A DNA stretch of 40,258 nucleotides from contig JAAYEK010000201.1 in NCBI GenBank assembly GCA_012728785.1, positions 1 to 40,258 on the forward strand. Direction: 5' to 3'. This document shows, one piece after another, positions 1 to 28,724 of the stretch. A program made the translations under genes and the position numbers. A model generated the notes under the pieces. That model searched no databases, was not told the origin of the DNA, and saw only the letters and a program-made list of their open reading frames with translations. Origin of the DNA: Bacillota bacterium. GTDB taxonomy: Bacteria; Bacillota; UBA4882; UBA8346. Position 1 is the stretch's first letter, and every line of letters begins with the position of its first letter.

Positions 1-1036
1 TTAAATATTCATACAGGCTGGTGCCTGGGAAGGGGAGCAGATGGTTAAAGGCGGCAGTATAAAACTGATGCTTTTCTGAAAAACGCAGCGCCTTTTCTAT
101 GGTTTCTTCTGTGTCATAGTCATACCCAAATATAAAGGTAGCATAAATACCGATTCCCGCAGCATGGATACGCTCTACCAGTTCATCCCTTTCCTTCACG
201 AACAGATTTACTGATTTTCTCATCTGTTTCAGATTTTCTTCTTCCAGGCTTTCAAAGCCGATCAGAATAATCTCACAACCACTTTCCTTCATGGTCTTCA
301 ACAGAACTTCATCCTTGGCCATACTGAGAGTTCCCTGACCGGCCCACTTTATCTTGAGAGGCTTTATTTTTTCAAAAAGCCCTAATGCGTTCTTTTTGTC
401 CGCCATCAGATTGTCATCCACCAGAAAATGATATTTAGATGCGGAATTTTGAATATCCTTTAGAATGTATTCATGGGGACGGGCAAAATATTTACACCTG
501 TAATAGCTTGCTATGGAACAAAAATCACAATGATTGCAACACCCCCTGCCTGTTTCAATTAAAGAAACCGGCAGATATTTTTTCCCTTTATAAATGGACT
601 TATCAGGCGATAAAGGGCTATAGGCCGGCTTACCCGCATAACACCTTTTCAGTTCGCTTTTTTGAAAATCCTCCAGCACGCTTTTCCAAACCGCTTCAGC
701 ATTGCCTGTGATGATTGCATTGGCATGTAACAAAGCCTCCTCAGGCATCAGGGTCGTATGATATCCTCCAAGAACCACCTTGGCTCCCCTTTCCCTGAAG
801 GCGCTGCTGATTTCATAGCTCCGCCGCGCTGTGTAGGTTTCTACGGTGATAACTACCAGGTCCGTCGGTTCATCATAATTAATAAGCTCAACTCTGTCAT
901 CATAAAAGGCCGTTTCTACAGCTTCAGGGGTCAGACTTTTTAATACAGCAATTGTTAAGGGCTCCATTTTCCATGTGCCGATATATTTCTGTCCTGGCTT
1001 CTTTCCTATGGCCGGTAATATAAATGTTAGTTTCAT
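1..1036 (-). CDS. B12-binding radical SAM protein (C-terminus cut by window edge)
   Basis: An open frame starts at the ATG ending at 1036 and runs off the window at base 2, giving 345 visible codons. The first ~125 residues resemble a cobalamin-binding Rossmann domain, with a GGYH motif near residue 90 and a VETYTARRSY block near 66. The radical SAM core follows with C166-x3-C170-x2-C173 for the [4Fe-4S]/SAM cluster, then DDN and GFES strands. The family does SAM- and cobalamin-dependent chemistry such as methylation or ring formation at unactivated carbons; this substrate is unknown. It is the last visible gene of a minus-strand cluster, 123 bp after the preceding radical SAM gene, and that spacer carries a repeated element. 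The visible part is close in layout to the genes at 4886-6241 and 6216-7547. Confidence 0.9.
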   Translation of the reverse strand, partial: MKLTFILPAIGKKPGQKYIGTWKMEPLTIAVLKSLTPEAVETAFYDDRVELINYDEPTDLVVITVETYTARRSYEISSAFRERGAKVVLGGYHTTLMPEEALLHANAIITGNAEAVWKSVLEDFQKSELKRCYAGKPAYSPLSPDKSIYKGKKYLPVSLIETGRGCCNHCDFCSIASYYRCKYFARPHEYILKDIQNSASKYHFLVDDNLMADKKNALGLFEKIKPLKIKWAGQGTLSMAKDEVLLKTMKESGCEIILIGFESLEEENLKQMRKSVNLFVKERDELVERIHAAGIGIYATFIFGYDYDTEETIEKALRFSEKHQFYTAAFNHLLPFPGTSLYEYL

Positions 1037-1095
1037 CCTGTACCCCTTTAGCTATTACAGATTAATAACCCATCGGTTATCAGAAATTTTTCGAT

Positions 1096-1142
1096 TGTAG
1101 CAATATTTCCTTACCTTTATTTATTTCAACGAGACGGGAGAT
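1096..1142. repeat. 47-bp intergenic repeat, copy 1
   Basis: This lies in the spacer between two radical SAM genes. Aligned without gaps to 2568-2614, it matches at 34 of 47 positions, with conserved blocks TGTAG, CTTACCT and CAACGAG on the plus strand. Both copies sit in the same place, 55-60 bases upstream of a radical SAM start. It may be a regulatory or RNA-processing element, or a leftover of gene duplication. The function is unknown. Confidence 0.6.
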
Positions 1143-1159
1143 TCTTAGCACCCGTTATA

Positions 1160-2509
1160 TCATTTGGCGGCTATTGCAGCAGGAACCGGAATGTCTGAGT
1201 TGTCGCACATCACATCCCTGGTGAAGTGCAGAAACTTTTCCGCATATTTTCTATATCCCAGGTTAAGGGGGATAGAAAGCCAGGGGCTGTGATTAAAGGG
1301 CGCCAGTCTTTTAGTAATATCCTTCGGACTGTAGGTATGCTTCCATGCCCAGATAATTCCCTCTTCTAAATCCTGGACACTCATCTTGGCAGGCTTAAAT
1401 ACGCAATGCTCAACATCGTACATCGCCCAGTTACGTTCGATGATTCGTCCCGCCTTGTTCAATTCTCTGTAAAGCCGGGTATTGGGAAAAGGGGTCAGAA
1501 TGCTGTATCTTGGCAGATCAATTTTAATTTTGGTAACCATCTCAACAGTTCTTTCAAAAACGGATTTATCCTCATCGTCCCCTCCAAAGGCAAAGCACCC
1601 CTGCACCAAGATACCATGATCATGGAGTTTTTTCATCAACTCACCATAATCCGCGACATGGTTTACTCCTTTGTTGATATATTTCTGGGAGGACTGCCAA
1701 ATAGATTCAAAGCCTATAAGCAGCCCTTTGCAGCCACTCTTTTCAAATACACTTATCAGTTCTTCATCTACCCCTATATGCGAGGTAACAAGCCCAAGCC
1801 AGAAAACTTTTAACCGGATAAGCGCTGTGAAAAGCTTTATTGCATATGCTCTGTCCGTAATTAGATTCACATCAGGGAAAACTACTAACTTAGCGTCAAG
1901 GGCTTCGATCTCCTTTACAACTTCATCAACGGGACGTTGATAAACAGTACTTCCAAAAGCCGCCGGATAAGCGCAGAATGTACAGGGGAAGCTGCAGCCC
2001 CTGACTGCCTCCACAGTATTGATTGTTATATAACCCTTTTTGTTAAGAAGCTCTCTCCTTGGAATTGGTTTTTTTGCTATTGTATAATTACACTCCTGAT
2101 GATAAAAGGGCTTTAGCTCCCCTTTAGCAAAATCCCTAAGCATCCGGGAAAAGGTAAACTCTGAAAAACCCGTCATAACAACATCTGCATGGCCGGCTGC
2201 CTCCTGAGGCAGCATAGTAGGATGTACTCCGCCCATAACCACCTTCATCCCTCTGCTGCGAAAATAGTCTGCATAAGCATAACATCTGGGAGCTGTGCCT
2301 GTAATGCAGGTTATTCCGATCAAATCCGCTTCCAGATCCGGAGGAATACTCCCTGCAGTCTCATCATAAATGACTACTTCCGCATTAAGTTCCTCCGGCA
2401 CAAGCGCCGCCAAAGTAGTTAAGGTGAGCGGGGCGTAGTGAAGGGATTTTCCGAAACTCCCGTTGTGTCTGTGCATTGCTCCGGCCGGAGCCAATAGTGC
2501 TATTTTCAT
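1160..2509 (-). CDS. B12-binding radical SAM protein, divergent member
   Basis: This is a 449-aa protein with an N-terminal cobalamin-binding domain (about residues 1-130, GGVHP near 93) and a radical SAM core with C172-x3-C176-x2-C179. I chose the ATG at 2509 because AGGAAA lies 9 bases upstream. An ATG 36 bases further up lacks a clear ribosome binding site. It lacks the T-x-[TS]-A-R-R-[AS]-Y block shared by the other three radical SAM proteins and has CITGTAPRCYAY there instead. Its C-terminus is also different, so it probably acts on a different substrate or step. It may catalyse a B12-dependent radical methylation or rearrangement, but the substrate cannot be read from the sequence. Confidence 0.88.
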   Translation of the reverse strand: MKIALLAPAGAMHRHNGSFGKSLHYAPLTLTTLAALVPEELNAEVVIYDETAGSIPPDLEADLIGITCITGTAPRCYAYADYFRSRGMKVVMGGVHPTMLPQEAAGHADVVMTGFSEFTFSRMLRDFAKGELKPFYHQECNYTIAKKPIPRRELLNKKGYITINTVEAVRGCSFPCTFCAYPAAFGSTVYQRPVDEVVKEIEALDAKLVVFPDVNLITDRAYAIKLFTALIRLKVFWLGLVTSHIGVDEELISVFEKSGCKGLLIGFESIWQSSQKYINKGVNHVADYGELMKKLHDHGILVQGCFAFGGDDEDKSVFERTVEMVTKIKIDLPRYSILTPFPNTRLYRELNKAGRIIERNWAMYDVEHCVFKPAKMSVQDLEEGIIWAWKHTYSPKDITKRLAPFNHSPWLSIPLNLGYRKYAEKFLHFTRDVMCDNSDIPVPAAIAAK

Positions 2510-2567
2510 TTGAACTTTCCTGCCTTTTATAGTGTCATTATGCATCGTTTCAAAAGTAAATTTTGTT

Positions 2568-2614
2568 TGTAGAAAAATTTTCTTACCTCTGCCCTTTCCA
2601 ACGAGGCGAAAGAT
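2568..2614. repeat. 47-bp intergenic repeat, copy 2
   Basis: This is the counterpart of 1096-1142, in the 117-bp spacer between the GH3-family gene and the radical SAM gene at 1160-2509. Similarity continues weakly into the flanking A/T-rich sequence on the side nearer the downstream start. No strong hairpin or U-run was seen, so it does not look like a plain terminator. Confidence 0.6.
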
Positions 2615-2626
2615 ATTTACACTTCT

Positions 2627-4165
2627 TCACATTTTATAGCCTTGGAAATACTTACCCCAGTCTTCCCTTGAAGAAAGACAGGCCGGTTTAATGTTTCCCA
2701 ACTTTTGTCCTGCATCTAGACACCCTTTGATATATTCCTTCTTTGGGTCTCCTGTCAACACAAATATCTGCAGTTCTTTTAACTGCCCCAACTTTCTGCA
2801 ATAATCATAATGATAACTTTCCCTTAGAGCGTTGTCCGCTTCTCTGCCCGATGGAAGCTTATCGCTCTTTATATATAAAATATAGCGGTTCTTCTCAGGA
2901 GCAAGCAGATAAAATTCCGATCCAGGGGCGAGCTTCCCCACAGCTTCCCTTACAAAAGTTTCATGGAGTTTCTCTCCAAACCTGTCACTGATCCTGTCGT
3001 TTTTCCCCATAAAAATAAGCAATGGCAAACTCTTCCTCCAGCCAACCACCTTAACAATATCATAGTTCCGGTAGCGATAAAAACCGCCTCCAGTGGTTAC
3101 AACCACCTCATATACCCTTCCCGTTTTAAGTTCATTAACCAAACAGATTTGATTTGTATCGATATCAATGAACTCATAAAAATGGGAGCGCACACTCAGA
3201 ATTCCTCCCCTTTCCCCAGCCAACGGAAAGGAAATGAAGCTTTCCGTAGATAACAACCCCTTAGGCTGAACTATACAATTTGGAAACAGTCTTTTCAAAC
3301 TGTCTCCGTAGAAAGCTGCATAGGCATCACACCAGCAACTTATAATCTTCAGCCTTGGCCATATTTGGTCGTAAGCCTTGTTATATACAGCCTGCCGAAT
3401 CTCCTTCCGCCTCCTGTGGCTTAATTCATTTAGCAGCCTTTCCTTGTTGTCTTCCATATAATCCAAAAGAAGCAGCAGATAAGTGGGGTTCCATACGGAG
3501 ATCAGTGTGAGCTCCTTTGTTTTTAAAAGCTCCACCACCGTTTTGGTATAGAACCTTTCCATATTCGTTTCTGTGCCTATATCCCTTGGACTTACGAAAA
3601 CCTTGTTCATCAAATATTTTTCTATCCTGCCGAAGTACTCGGAATCCTCCTCAAAACCGATAGGTATGCCGCTTTTAGTATACTGCTTGTTACCGATTGC
3701 CGGGGTGATGGACCAGTAGCTCCTCCCCCACTTGATCTCAGGATAGGTAGTATATAAATCATAGATCCAGGGCTTTATGCCCATCTGGAATTCTTCCTTT
3801 AGTGATTTTGTATAAGGAATAAGCTTAGCTGCTTTTGTTGAACCGCTTGTGGGTTCCAGGGTTATTATTTTTTCCATCGTCAGCAGACTTTCTTCCTTCT
3901 CTGATATTTGTTCAATATAGGGCCGGTAGGTTTCATAATCAGACAAAGGCGTCTTCTCCTGATAGGCTTTTATGCTGTCTATTGTCTTAAAACCGTATTT
4001 TTTTCCGTAGGCTGTCTCCTCATTTTTCATTAAGATTTCCTTCAGCCTTCTCTTCTGTACCACTTCTGGAGATGTTACCGCCGCAAATCTTTTGTATTCT
4101 CCCTGATAAAACCGACAGCATAATGTATTGATAAAGTAATACAATAATATTTTAGGATTTCTCAT
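2627..4165 (-). CDS. GH3-family acyl-adenylating enzyme
   Basis: This 512-aa protein matches the GH3 (auxin-responsive promoter) superfamily over its length. GH3 enzymes adenylate a carboxylic acid and transfer the acyl group, in plants to amino acids. Visible features are the ATP-binding loop EPTSGSTKAAKLIPYT (about 104-119), a STES segment in mid-protein and the YRYRNYDIVKV motif before a C-terminal acyl-transfer domain. The start lies 14 bases after the stop of the GNAT-like gene, which suggests one transcript. In this setting it could activate or conjugate a carboxylate intermediate made or changed by the radical SAM enzymes; that is inference. No transmembrane segment is evident apart from a mildly hydrophobic N-terminus. 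Confidence 0.85.
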   Translation of the reverse strand: MRNPKILLYYFINTLCCRFYQGEYKRFAAVTSPEVVQKRRLKEILMKNEETAYGKKYGFKTIDSIKAYQEKTPLSDYETYRPYIEQISEKEESLLTMEKIITLEPTSGSTKAAKLIPYTKSLKEEFQMGIKPWIYDLYTTYPEIKWGRSYWSITPAIGNKQYTKSGIPIGFEEDSEYFGRIEKYLMNKVFVSPRDIGTETNMERFYTKTVVELLKTKELTLISVWNPTYLLLLLDYMEDNKERLLNELSHRRRKEIRQAVYNKAYDQIWPRLKIISCWCDAYAAFYGDSLKRLFPNCIVQPKGLLSTESFISFPLAGERGGILSVRSHFYEFIDIDTNQICLVNELKTGRVYEVVVTTGGGFYRYRNYDIVKVVGWRKSLPLLIFMGKNDRISDRFGEKLHETFVREAVGKLAPGSEFYLLAPEKNRYILYIKSDKLPSGREADNALRESYHYDYCRKLGQLKELQIFVLTGDPKKEYIKGCLDAGQKLGNIKPACLSSREDWGKYFQGYKM

Positions 4166-4179
4166 TTAGTCCCCAGCCT

Positions 4180-4893
4180 TTAAGCTGAATTATTAAACAA
4201 AAACTTCTGCATTCGCACTGATAGATTGGATTTGCTAAGCTTTGTGACACAGATCAAATCGTTACCCTTTATGTAACCTGGATTTTTTGCTACGAAAAAT
4301 GCAATATTTCTATCCTTTAGCCTCTCTTTACTAACATCTGCCACATTCTCTTTCAGCTTGTCCTTAACTCCCTTGTAACAAAGGACCCCCGTCTTTTCAT
4401 CGTATTCCCCGGGACTGTAAAACCTGCCGAATGCGTCAATTAGTTCTCTGATTTCCTTAGGAGTTTCTTCCTTATAATTGGGATAAAAGGAATTATAAAA
4501 GGTTGGAAGTATCCGATAGGTTTTGTAGCCCTTACAGATCAGAAACCAATAAAAGTCTCCATATTGCTCCTCATATCTAAAAAAGGATCTTGCGAAGATC
4601 TTAAAAAGCTCCGCGCTCCCCCAATATTCCTTATGAATAATTGTATCTCCCGAAAAAACTCCGTGGACAAATCCATCACCCAGTGGTATATGAATAATTT
4701 GCTGTGTAGAAAAACCCCGTATTATGTTCGTTTCATCCTTTAATACAATGGAATAATCCTTCTTGTTTAGATCTTCCATGAAGTTTTTCCATGTCATATT
4801 GTCATAAAAGGTATCCATTAATTCATACATTGTTTTAATATCTTCAACGCTGAGAGATTTTATTGCCACTATGCTTCCCGTCAACTTAGCCAT
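4180..4893 (-). CDS. GNAT-like acyltransferase or hypothetical protein
   Basis: This is a 237-aa protein. Its first ~150 residues look like a GNAT acyltransferase fold: an opening strand and helix (VEDIKTMYELMDTFY), a strand with GFSTQQIIHIP, the segment FSGDTIIHKEYWGS and a later ICKGYKTYRILPTFY. No classical acetyl-CoA loop (R-x-x-G-x-G/A) is clear, so activity is uncertain. Its first 8 bases overlap the end of the upstream radical SAM gene, implying translational coupling, and the GH3-family gene follows after 14 bases. It may work with the GH3 enzyme as an acyl-acceptor or transfer partner. The fold call is moderate and the function is unknown. Confidence 0.6.
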   Translation of the reverse strand: MAKLTGSIVAIKSLSVEDIKTMYELMDTFYDNMTWKNFMEDLNKKDYSIVLKDETNIIRGFSTQQIIHIPLGDGFVHGVFSGDTIIHKEYWGSAELFKIFARSFFRYEEQYGDFYWFLICKGYKTYRILPTFYNSFYPNYKEETPKEIRELIDAFGRFYSPGEYDEKTGVLCYKGVKDKLKENVADVSKERLKDRNIAFFVAKNPGYIKGNDLICVTKLSKSNLSVRMQKFLFNNSA

Positions 4894-6241
4894 TTGCTTT
4901 TTTCCCTTCCGTAAATCCGAAACGCATTCCCTGTTTTTTAAATACTTCCTTTCTAAAAAGAGGATTGTATATCAAATATGTAAAGAAGCGGTATAGGGTA
5001 CGCATGTTGGTCTTTGGCTCCAATGCCCTTTTAAAAATCGACCAGGGGGAATTAAAAACTTTTCGACACCAAAATGATACCTCCGTCAGTTCCACCGCCG
5101 ACATGTTTTTAGGAATAAATGACGCGTGATTGAAGCGGTACTCCTCATGAAGCCACCATTTTCCTTCATATAACAGCCGTCCTTCTTTCTTTAGCTTTTT
5201 ATATAAAGGCGTGTTCGGGTAAGGCATCAAAATATTGTAAGCTGCAAAGCAAAACTTGTTCCGAATGGCAAATCGGCAGGTTTCTTTAATACTTTCCCTG
5301 GTATCGCCATCATACCCAAGGGTAAAGGCGGCCCAGGTTTGAAGTCCCCATCTTCTAAGCTCTTTAATTTCCTTTTTATAGTTGTCAAGAGCTCTTCTCT
5401 TGTTTGCCCCTTTTGCTGCAGCCACTAGATTTTCCTCATTTATGGATTCAAAGCCAATAACCAGCCCCAGGCAGCCGCTCTTTACCATGAGCTCCATCAG
5501 CTCCATATCCTCAAGCATATCGATGCTTCCCTGGCTGACCCACTTCACCTTCAAAGGAATGAGAGCTCGGAAAAGCTCCTTAGCTTTTTCAAAATCCGAA
5601 ACAATATTATCATCTACAAAAAACAAAAGCTTCCGCTTTTGGCTTTTAATCTCTTCAACAACCTCATTAACTTCCCTGCAAAAATGCTTTCCCCTGAAGT
5701 AAGCGCTGGAAGCGCAGAAATTGCAATAATATTTGCAGCCCCTTGAGAATTGCAGCAGGGTAATTGGTAAATAGCCCTTTCCTTCAAAGATATCTCTTCT
5801 TGTAATAACACCCTTTTGAGGTATTAGGGGCTGTTCCGCTCGATACTCCTTCTTTAGTTCATTCTTCACAAAGTCCTGCAACATCTCCCGCCATACATTT
5901 TCCGCATCTCCAATAATAATGGCGTCTGCATGTTTTTTTACCTCTTCCGGAGTCAGCATCACATGCATGCCGCCCATTACGGTAGTTACTCCCCTTTTTT
6001 GATATTCCCGGCCGATTTCATAGGCGCGTCTTGCTGTAAAAGTCTCAACTGTAATTGCAACTAGATCGGCAGGTTCATCGTAAGGTATTTCCTCCATACG
6101 GTCATCATACATTACTACTTCTATGTCTCTTGGAGTCAGGGCTGCCAAAATCCCAAGCTGCAATGGTTCCATACGACCCTCATCAACGTATAGGCTATGC
6201 TCTCTCCTGCCAATATTAGGTTTTATTAATACCAATTTCAT
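4886..6241 (-). CDS. B12-binding radical SAM protein
   Basis: This 451-aa protein has an N-terminal cobalamin-binding domain (about 1-125, with DDRMEEIPYDEPADL and GGMH near 90-93) followed by a radical SAM core with C169-x3-C173-x2-C176, FVDDN and GFESI. The C-terminal ~90 residues carry the FNPL/YPNTPLY, WWL and KQGMRFG features shared with the 6216-7547 product. The start overlaps the upstream radical SAM gene by 26 bases and the end overlaps the next gene by 8, so the three are probably translated together. AGGAG about 10 bases before the ATG supports the start. The substrate is unknown. Confidence 0.9.
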   Translation of the reverse strand: MKLVLIKPNIGRREHSLYVDEGRMEPLQLGILAALTPRDIEVVMYDDRMEEIPYDEPADLVAITVETFTARRAYEIGREYQKRGVTTVMGGMHVMLTPEEVKKHADAIIIGDAENVWREMLQDFVKNELKKEYRAEQPLIPQKGVITRRDIFEGKGYLPITLLQFSRGCKYYCNFCASSAYFRGKHFCREVNEVVEEIKSQKRKLLFFVDDNIVSDFEKAKELFRALIPLKVKWVSQGSIDMLEDMELMELMVKSGCLGLVIGFESINEENLVAAAKGANKRRALDNYKKEIKELRRWGLQTWAAFTLGYDGDTRESIKETCRFAIRNKFCFAAYNILMPYPNTPLYKKLKKEGRLLYEGKWWLHEEYRFNHASFIPKNMSAVELTEVSFWCRKVFNSPWSIFKRALEPKTNMRTLYRFFTYLIYNPLFRKEVFKKQGMRFGFTEGKKANG

Positions 6242-7547
6242 CGGCTGATTCTCCTAATAGTCTGCCTTGCTTTCTGCGTATTTCCCTATTGGAAATAATA
6301 TTAAGGGCCATGAATAGAAAAAAGTTATAAAGCTTAAAATGATAGCTGCCTGCAAATAAACGCTTCAAGATACTTCCCACTCCATAAAATCTATAACGCG
6401 CTAATTTGCAACCGTCCTTTAATTCTTCAGGTGAAAGCTTTTTAGGACGGTAGGCAGTATCACCGTAGCAGTAATCATCCCTCAACCACCATTTATCATA
6501 AATTAAGCGTCCCTCTTCCTCAAGTCTTTTATAAAGTGGAGTTCCCGGCATGGGTATTAATGGATTAAAATTTGCAACAGTAAAATTATGTTTCATTGCA
6601 AAGTTCAAAATTTCCTGGAAGCTCTCAGCGGTGTCCTCGTCATAACCCAATACAAAGGTGGCGTATATTAGTAATCCGTGTTTATATATATTTGCCACAG
6701 CCCTGTCATAATCTCCAATAGTAAGATTTGCGGATTTGTTCATTCTCTCGAGATTATTCTTGTTTAAGGATTCGAATCCCATTAAAACCATTATACATCC
6801 GCTTTCCTTCATCAGCTTCAGGAGCTTGTCCCGAAGCGCCGCATCCATACTGATCTGACATGCCCACTTTTTCTTAAGCGGCTTCAACGCTATGAAAAGC
6901 TTTATAGCCGCTTCTTCATCAACGAATAGATTGTCATCGATAAAGAAGATAATCTTCTCTTTGGTAGCCTTTATCTCTTCAATAACCTGTTTTAGATCCC
7001 CATGACGCACCTTTCCGAGATACATCGCTTTAATTGAACAAAAGTCGCAGCCAAACCTGCAACCCCGGGAATACTGAACCAAACCAAGCTTTTGGTATTT
7101 CTTCCCCCTAAAGGCGGAATGGTTGATATCAATCGGGACGAAATCAGACTTCCGTGATGAGATATATTTCGGCTGGACCGTACCGTTTAAGGCGTCCTCT
7201 ATCAGTCGAGGCCAGGTATCTTCCGCATCTCCCACCATGACTACATCCCCGTATGCCTTTGCTTCTTCCTTAAGCAGGCTGGCATGAAAGCCTCCCAAGA
7301 CAATAATATTGTCTTTTGTTTTAAACTTTTTCGCTAAAATATACGCCCTCCTGGCGGAAAAGGTATCGAAGGAAAGGGCTATCATATCTGATGTCAGGGC
7401 TTGAGGCAGCTTTTCAACCCGGTCATCAAGGAATTCCAGTTCTATGCCTTCCGGAGTCAATTGAGCTAAAATAGGGAAGATCAGAGGTTTAAGGGCATCA
7501 TAACACTTGCCTTCAAACATACTTACTTTGATAATTGTTATCTTCAT
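6216..7547 (-). CDS. B12-binding radical SAM protein, first gene of the cluster
   Basis: This 443-aa protein has a cobalamin-binding-like domain at about 1-125 (DDRVEKLP, GGFHASLL near 85-92), then a radical SAM core with C163-x3-C167-x2-C170, FFIDDNLF and GFESL. Its C-terminal region has WWLRDDYCYGD and RKQGRLLGE. AGGTGG lies about 8 bases before the ATG. It leads the operon-like run that continues to base 1. The 196-bp upstream spacer is too short and lacks the conserved boxes for a cobalamin riboswitch. It shares the [TS]-A-R-R-A-Y block with the products at 4886-6241 and 1-1036, which suggests duplication within the cluster followed by specialisation. The reaction is unknown. Confidence 0.9.
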   Translation of the reverse strand: MKITIIKVSMFEGKCYDALKPLIFPILAQLTPEGIELEFLDDRVEKLPQALTSDMIALSFDTFSARRAYILAKKFKTKDNIIVLGGFHASLLKEEAKAYGDVVMVGDAEDTWPRLIEDALNGTVQPKYISSRKSDFVPIDINHSAFRGKKYQKLGLVQYSRGCRFGCDFCSIKAMYLGKVRHGDLKQVIEEIKATKEKIIFFIDDNLFVDEEAAIKLFIALKPLKKKWACQISMDAALRDKLLKLMKESGCIMVLMGFESLNKNNLERMNKSANLTIGDYDRAVANIYKHGLLIYATFVLGYDEDTAESFQEILNFAMKHNFTVANFNPLIPMPGTPLYKRLEEEGRLIYDKWWLRDDYCYGDTAYRPKKLSPEELKDGCKLARYRFYGVGSILKRLFAGSYHFKLYNFFLFMALNIISNREIRRKQGRLLGESADEIGINKT

Positions 7548-27783: not shown

Positions 27784-27807
27784 ACTGATCCTGCTTATTA
27801 CCAACCT

Positions 27808-27829
27808 TGGTAGATAGTATTCTCTACCA
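27808..27829 (+). repeat. 7-bp inverted repeat between receptor and ku genes
   Basis: TGGTAGA and TCTACCA flank an 8-base loop just after the chemotaxis receptor gene. No U-run follows, so any terminator function is weak. Confidence 0.35.
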
Positions 27830-27902
27830 GCACCTTCTAGGTGAACTTCCACAACGGGTATCGGTTGTTAAAACCGGGCATACTACTTCCGAGGTGATTT
27901 AT

Positions 27903-28724
27903 TTGCGTACTCTTTGGAAAGGCGCTATCAGCTTCGGATTAGTCAATGTCCCGATCAAGATGTATACCGCTACTGAAAAAAAAGAACTGAAATTCAATTA
28001 CCTCCATGAAAAATGCGGTACCCCCATCAAATACCAACGTCACTGTCCCACCTGTGATGTTGAAGTCTCCCAAACAGAAATCGTCCGGGGTTATGAATAC
28101 CAAAAAGGCCAGTATGTAGTCTTACGAGATGAAGATTTTGAAGGTATTCCCGATGAACGGAGCAAAACCATTGATATCATGGATTTTGTGGATTTAACCG
28201 AGATCGATCCAATCTATTTTGAAAAAAGCTACTATCTCGAGCCAAACCAGGGCGGAGAAAAAGCTTATGCCCTTCTTAAAAAAGCCATGCATGATACGGG
28301 TAAGATCGCCGTCGCCCGAGTGACGATCCGCTCTAAAGAGACCCTAGTTACGCTTAGGGTCTATCAAAACGTACTCGCCATGGCCACCATCTTTTACCCG
28401 GATGAGATTCGTACCACCGCAGGGCTGACCGGAGTCCAGGTCGAACCGAAACTCCATGACAACGAGGTCCAAATGGCCACCAGTTTGATTCAGAACCTTT
28501 CCAGCCGCTTTGACCCCTCCAAATATACCAACAACTATCGTCAGGCCTTAATGGAGATCATCCAAGCTAAGATCGCCGGGGGCGAAATCTCCCAAGCTCC
28601 CGAACGGGAGACCGGCAAGATCATCGATCTCATGGAAGCCCTCCGGGCCAGTATCGCCGCTACTGAAAAAGAACAACCCGTCCCAGCGCGGAAAAAACGC
28701 AACACTCGCGCTAAAACGGGTTAA
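27903..28724 (+). CDS. ku: Ku DNA end-binding protein
   Basis: This 273-aa bacterial Ku binds double-strand DNA ends as a homodimer and recruits ligase LigD for non-homologous end joining. I chose the TTG at 27903 because GAGGTG lies 6 bases before it and the protein then opens LRTLWKGAISFGLVNVP, the usual Ku N-terminus. A longer frame upstream has no family similarity. The core has CGTPIKYQRHCPTC, a possible zinc-binding pair, and the C-terminus ends in a basic tail (RKKRNTRAKTG) typical of Ku. No ligD is adjacent in this window. Confidence 0.95.
   Translation: MRTLWKGAISFGLVNVPIKMYTATEKKELKFNYLHEKCGTPIKYQRHCPTCDVEVSQTEIVRGYEYQKGQYVVLRDEDFEGIPDERSKTIDIMDFVDLTEIDPIYFEKSYYLEPNQGGEKAYALLKKAMHDTGKIAVARVTIRSKETLVTLRVYQNVLAMATIFYPDEIRTTAGLTGVQVEPKLHDNEVQMATSLIQNLSSRFDPSKYTNNYRQALMEIIQAKIAGGEISQAPERETGKIIDLMEALRASIAATEKEQPVPARKKRNTRAKTG

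Follow-up and report, generated by a model that had tools for sequence, protein, structure and literature searches.

The stretch of DNA analysed here, hereafter the window, spans 40,258 nucleotides and represents one whole contig (C192; JAAYEK010000201.1) of a Bacillota bacterium whose 3.7 Mb genome is assembled in 296 contigs (GCA_012728785.1). At its left end lies a minus-strand operon, the subject of this report, that joins genes for radical S-adenosylmethionine (SAM) proteins to a GH3-family enzyme and a GNAT-fold protein. A listing of open reading frames (ORFs) confirmed the six packed genes of the initial annotation in their position, order and overlapping ends: rS4 (6216–7547; 443 aa, with an N-terminal B12-binding-like domain), rS3 (4886–6241; 451 aa), X (4180–4893; a predicted single-domain GNAT-fold acyltransferase of 237 aa), the GH3-family acyl-acid amido synthetase gene (2627–4165; 512 aa), rS2 (1160–2545; 461 aa) and rS1 (2–1036), which is cut by the contig end. 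The rS4 and rS3 genes share 26 bp, and rS3 and X share 8 bp.

Base 1 of the window is merely the end of the contig and not that of the cluster, as had been anticipated. Since related loci predicted a second GNAT gene after rS1, such a gene was sought and, by searching the same genome with its homologue from a related locus (L055), located on contig C256 (locus L137). The final 127 bases of this contig are identical to window positions 1–127, without a mismatch. Once the two contigs are joined, rS1 reaches 443 aa and is overlapped by the gene of GNAT2, a predicted double-GNAT protein of 371 aa (L137:5689-6804, minus strand), such that the full operon comprises seven genes in the order rS4-rS3-X-GH3-rS2-rS1-GNAT2.

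The window GH3 alone, used as a query against genome contigs, gave no match, whereas an alignment of X gave relatives: a scan of 84,980 species genomes, which required the pattern YWxL[IL]xKG in X, returned 373, of which the best 80, ranked by likeness to the window, were fetched. The pattern is invariant in the X relatives, in part a selection effect of its having been a scan requirement. Among the 50 intact loci inspected, GH3 is present in 48, GNAT2 in 47 and rS2 in 44, and most adjacent genes overlap or sit no more than 20 bp apart. The order rSe-rS4-rS3-X-GH3-rS2-rS1-GNAT2, where rSe is a fifth radical SAM gene, occurs in 18 intact loci and is the usual arrangement in Clostridia; seven further loci show the same order without rSe, the only difference that sets the window operon apart from it and one shared by the near relative Alkaliphilus serpentinus. 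Because this gene order is kept in dozens of other genomes, a chance grouping is excluded, and the genome-neighbourhood check proposed in the initial annotation thus found the gene set to be conserved as a unit. A c-di-GMP-I riboswitch was noted about 1 kb downstream of the A. serpentinus cluster (L056:17236-17321), and neither the window nor seven related loci gave an Rfam match to a cobalamin riboswitch. Another carrier of the cluster, the culturable Peptoclostridium litorale DSM 5388, is represented by locus L108.

Within its own lineage, the cluster is sporadic, since the GH3 gene, the single one in the whole source genome, was found neither in one genome of the same genus nor in eight of the same family, all of which were searched. 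X was detected in 6 of 247 sampled genomes of an Acidobacteriota-type group, in 21 of 343 of a Planctomycetota-type group and in 8 of 398 of a Pseudomonadota-type group (two of these eight being weak), with group names taken from the titles of the seed loci. Many loci come from metagenome assemblies and may carry wrong taxon labels. The clusters of three loci labelled Mucispirillum, Propionibacterium and Euryarchaeota (L060, L112 and L119), for instance, resemble those of other groups and may represent mislabelled or mis-binned contigs or transfers.

A tblastn search of plasmids revealed a GH3 gene whose neighbours are five radical SAM genes and one for an N-acetyltransferase, on a mobilizable 159-kb IncF plasmid of a Citrobacter portucalensis gull isolate (L043:11220-23315; NZ_CP134684.1), where the cluster has additional PAP2, SnoaL-like and desaturase genes. 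Its rS1, rS2 and rS3 fall with Planctomycetota sequences in the tree described below, which suggests transfer between phyla. Other replicons hold partial or more distant versions. The Acinetobacter baumannii version (L044:6620-15844) has X, GH3 and GNAT2 but lacks radical SAM genes; it is set between genes for EmrAB-like and outer-membrane efflux proteins, on a record that is called a plasmid but, at 4.1 Mb, is probably a mislabelled chromosome. Two Azospirillum megaplasmids (L046, L047) carry a distant X homologue (~25% identity) with no GH3 or GNAT2 match nearby, which may point to an earlier or a separate role for X.

The four radical SAM proteins of the window are paralogues with pairwise identities of 31–43%. 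All score above the cut-off of PF04055 (65.3, 53.5, 57.2 and 52.4 bits for rS4, rS3, rS2 and rS1, respectively) and contain the CX3CX2C motif (CCNHCDFC, CSFPCTFC, CKYYCNFC and CRFGCDFC), as previously annotated; the motif is also present in all full-length radical SAM homologues. The B12-binding family PF02310 matches all four, with rS3 (33.5 bits) and rS2 (35.5 bits) above the cut-off and rS4 (30.7 bits) and rS1 (26.1 bits) just below it. The cobalamin-like domain reported in the initial annotation is thus probable, whereas the B12 dependence ascribed to the enzymes goes further than the domain itself, from which we infer cobalamin use. The source genome encodes CobS and can, by this sequence criterion, make cobamides.

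In a tree of 69 radical SAM proteins, rS2, rS3, rS4 and rSe each lie on one side of a branch, while rS1 requires two changes; support is high for rS4 (100/98) and rS3 (100/100) and moderate for rS2 (77/55). These orthologous groups span Bacillota, Planctomycetota, Melainabacteria and others: rS3 shares 58% identity with an ORF of the cluster on the Citrobacter plasmid, and rS2 orthologues of 71% identity adjoin GH3 in other Bacillota. The best NCBIfam models for the four proteins are HpnJ, BchE and PhpK, all far below cut-off; where matched, the scores against BchE, HpnJ, PhpK, AprD4 and the ladderane-associated TIGR04072 range from 32 to 95 bits, and none reaches its cut-off (360–600). AprD4 is also the best PDB chain for the family profile. 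An extra radical SAM protein was observed in clusters from Verrucomicrobia, Lentisphaerae, Planctomycetota and Acidobacteriota (L121, L130, L132-L134), one copy of which (L130:3820-4947) weakly matches W_rSAM_matur and related models.

The assignment of the central gene to the GH3 acyl-adenylase family is borne out by a PF03321 score of 153.8 bits (cut-off 23.6) and a GH3_M score of 59.4 bits, and the GH3 profile matches plant GH3 structures at 1e-32. All three nucleotide-binding motifs are present (PTSGST at residues 106–111, TE at 307–308 and YRY at 363–365), with G108 and S109, T307 and E308, and R364 and Y365 invariant in the GH3 alignment (A2). Among the bacterial GH3 enzymes characterised so far, the nearest is OlsH, which forms N-acyl ornithine from free fatty acid, ornithine and ATP; the paper describing it suggests that GH3 homologues of other bacteria produce different amino lipids (PMC12493201). 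With 52.7 bits against the OlsH equivalog NF052613 (cut-off 620), the window protein is, judged by its sequence, an acyl-acid amido synthetase distinct from OlsH.

X, which matches no Pfam or NCBIfam model, had been labelled GNAT-like, and its AlphaFold model (predicted local distance difference test score, pLDDT, 95.3) indeed adopts a confident GNAT fold. The model aligns with GCN5 (Z 12.9 over 156 residues, root-mean-square deviation (rmsd) 2.9), the acyl-homoserine lactone synthase-type protein LasI (Z 12.2) and FeeM (Z 11.0), and aminoglycoside acetyltransferases score as high as the latter two. The classic coenzyme A (CoA) loop, [QR]xxGx[GA], is found in 0 of 74 X relatives; because this pyrophosphate-binding loop is missing, the donor may be an acyl-acyl carrier protein (acyl-ACP). 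For GNAT2, modelled on its A. serpentinus homologue (L056; pLDDT 94.7), the best fold matches are N-myristoyltransferases (NMTs; Z 22.6 over 298 residues, rmsd 3.6). In the model, its two adjacent GNAT domains take up the NMT arrangement, and in the superposition its final residue falls on the final residue of NMT. The C-terminus is also fixed in the alignment, where 49 of 49 full-length rows stop at one column, and 64 of 66 sequences end in [ED]xxx[LIV]. In human NMT1, the C-terminal carboxylate serves as the catalytic base (PMC7048800), and the fixed C-terminus together with the NMT-like fold suggests, by analogy and from a structural model, that GNAT2 employs the same type of catalysis.

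In loci of other phyla, the same X/GH3/GNAT2 core is accompanied by Rieske proteins, fatty-acid desaturases, AurF-like proteins and PAP2 phosphatases. The closest model to the Rieske proteins is that of 4beta-methylsterol monooxygenase, far below cut-off. Among 43 loci outside the clostridial set, Rieske proteins (≥30% identity) occur in 12 of the 21 without rS1/rS2 versus 1 of the 22 with them (Fisher p = 2e-4), in a hand-transcribed table that is uncorrected for kinship and whose 30% threshold was set after seeing the data; among the same 43 loci, no comparable bias was seen for desaturase, AurF, PAP2 or SnoaL genes. The tendency of clusters without rS1/rS2 to carry a Rieske protein suggests a swap between O2-dependent and O2-independent steps. 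A precedent for such a swap is the cobalamin radical SAM enzyme BchE, which has an O2-dependent counterpart in AcsF (PMC13142503). The Rieske-type clusters, which include those of Hormoscilla (L131) and Rokubacteriota (L127), show two other recurrent features: FG-GAP repeat proteins (L126:5315-8074, L131:16755-18356), one of them a fusion with a UnbV_ASPIC domain and a membrane portion resembling NQR2/RnfD, and, upstream of X, a conserved protein of ~215 aa (L126:1258-1920, L131:9367-10008) that is apparently a membrane protein and has no Pfam match.

Taken together, these data lead us to read the seven genes, with a probability of roughly 0.5, as an operon whose product is an N-acylated amine that undergoes oxidative remodelling of its skeleton; an amino lipid or a diffusible acyl-amide is the most likely form. 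GNAT2 would transfer a long-chain acyl group, carried by CoA or ACP, to an amine, its C-terminal carboxylate serving as the base; X would perform a second acyl transfer, perhaps with acyl-ACP as the donor; and GH3 would activate a carboxylate with ATP and form an amide. The paralogous radical SAM enzymes could then account for successive oxidative steps of the BchE/HpnJ type on one skeleton, whether by dehydrogenation, by inserting oxygen taken from water or by closing a ring. Many of the clusters in other phyla may instead leave the equivalent of the rS1/rS2 steps to a Rieske oxygenase that uses O2.

Several points weigh against this proposal. While the operon, its conservation, the enzyme families and the predicted folds are established by sequence and comparison, the product and substrates are predictions from the genes, and a fold match, as used here for X and GNAT2, is not proof of function. 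The N-terminus of GH3 holds no clear membrane helix, scoring no better than an internal control. The limits of the Rieske comparison apply here as well, and some loci have radical SAM genes and, besides them, desaturases, weak Rieske matches and AurF-like proteins, meaning that the modules are not strictly alternatives. Finally, the cobalamin radical SAM enzymes characterised so far are mostly methylases.

This last point leads to a reading of the initial annotation's proposal in which rS1-rS4 are methylcobalamin-dependent C-methylases that act on inert carbons of a carboxylic acid before GH3 conjugates it. It would agree with the CX3CX2C motif and B12-binding-like domain of all four proteins, with the capacity for cobamide synthesis and with matches of the PhpK P-methylase model to rS1, rS3 and rS4 and of the tryptophan C2-methylase, CysS and TokK structures to the family profile. 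However, the best scores are shared with the non-methylating enzymes BchE, HpnJ and AprD4, and the tendency of Rieske proteins to replace rS1/rS2 is hard to square with methylation. We consider the methylase interpretation unlikely, if worth keeping in mind: of the earlier proposal, the conjugation of an acid is retained and made more specific, given that amides are what GH3 enzymes form and that N-acylation is suggested by the pair of GNAT-fold proteins, whereas modification of several unactivated carbons, if by methylation, is not upheld as stated, the best matches and the Rieske pattern fitting oxidative remodelling at least as well. Oxidative remodelling is thus favoured as the first choice, with methylation as the second, because of the likeness to BchE, HpnJ and AprD4, the Rieske pattern and the BchE/AcsF precedent.

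A special case of the N-acylated amine would be a diffusible acyl-amide signal, an analogue of the acyl-homoserine lactones or of N-acyl amino acids, in whose synthesis X would play the part of LasI or FeeM while the radical SAM enzymes modify the chain. The alignments of X with these two proteins, the sporadic distribution, the plasmid carriage and the efflux genes that flank the Acinetobacter copy would all suit such a role, which nonetheless appears improbable to us given that GCN5 and aminoglycoside acetyltransferases match X equally well and that the neighbourhoods share no recurrent gene for a regulator or receptor. A further possibility, in which the radical SAM paralogues assemble a hydrocarbon lipid of the ladderane-like or membrane-spanning kind and GH3 adds its head group, would make sense of the paralogue arrays, which suit repeated C–C bond formation, and of TIGR04072 matching every radical SAM protein at 9e-14 or better; with scores of 51–73 bits against a cut-off of 360 and no fatty-acid synthase or head-group genes recurring in the cluster, we regard it as very improbable. 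Least credible of all is a lipidated, radical-SAM-modified RiPP (ribosomally synthesised and post-translationally modified peptide). B12 radical SAM enzymes and GNAT-type acyltransferases are known from RiPP clusters, but GH3 is not usual among RiPP enzymes, and the 800-bp flanks of 115 operon ends contained no conserved precursor ORF, the sole recurring match being the N-terminus of rSe.

The genes outside the operon, a 254-aa protein followed by phosphate-transporter-like genes on C256 and arabinofuranosidase-like genes in the window, do not recur in the related neighbourhoods listed. With a possible siderophore link in mind, we noted a FecCDE-like ABC set upstream of one cluster (L059); an ABC ATPase family, which is generic, occurs near 11 loci. 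Elsewhere in the window, the protein encoded at 27807-28724 resembles, from reading its sequence, the bacterial Ku end-joining protein.

Extending the proposal beyond this genome, one may tentatively envisage a new and widespread class of acyl-amides, membrane lipids or signals, made via an NMT-like acyltransferase, a second GNAT protein and a GH3 ligase. In this doubtful but attractive scenario, the cobalamin radical SAM set would be the O2-independent equivalent of a Rieske oxidation sequence and so provide, after BchE/AcsF, a second general case in which one product is reached by parallel routes, one anaerobic and one aerobic. The species that carry the cluster number at least several hundred, belong to many phyla and include many Clostridia from animal guts; one copy sits on a mobilizable Citrobacter plasmid. 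If the proposal holds true, a common bacterial lipid or signal has gone unseen, bacteria possess an NMT relative in fold and probably mechanism, and a single pathway has an anaerobic form, with radical SAM enzymes, and a matching aerobic one, with Rieske enzymes; comparing the two could reveal how cobalamin radical SAM enzymes that do not methylate carry out their reactions.

The enzyme families are all known; it is their combination, distribution and probable product that are apparently new. In agreement with the initial annotation, which knew of no pathway with this gene set, we found no description of a cluster of GH3 and radical SAM genes in the literature searched (most subscription papers lay outside it), and the only related bacterial GH3 pathway is the OlsH/OlsI ornithine-lipid pathway of Singulisphaera acidiphila. 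Both systems feature a bacterial GH3 enzyme that makes, or is predicted to make, an amide; however, the seven operon genes include no OlsI-type alpha/beta-hydrolase and the present cluster instead encodes a pair of GNATs together with four to five radical SAM enzymes, whereas the OlsH paper mentions neither radical SAM nor GNAT genes (PMC12493201). The lipopeptide AFC-BC11 of the Burkholderia cepacia complex, whose afc cluster was considered as the identity of a Burkholderia locus (L042) and rejected on gene content, is similar in its acyl-amide assembly and desaturase-type tailoring. Yet afc relies on a fatty acyl-AMP ligase and KAS III-like enzymes together with an A-domain protein and a carrier protein, and its paper mentions no GH3 or GNAT; L042 is a different cluster. 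BchE, HpnJ, AprD4 and PhpK share domain order and the CX3CX2C motif with the radical SAM proteins described here, which differ in scoring 92–95 bits or less against equivalog cut-offs of 480–600 and in occurring as four to five paralogues per operon beside GH3 and GNATs. Lastly, GNAT2 resembles eukaryotic N-myristoyltransferase in its predicted double-GNAT fold and superposed C-terminus, but is only 10% identical to it and resides in a bacterial biosynthetic operon, and its acceptor is therefore probably a small amine rather than a protein glycine.

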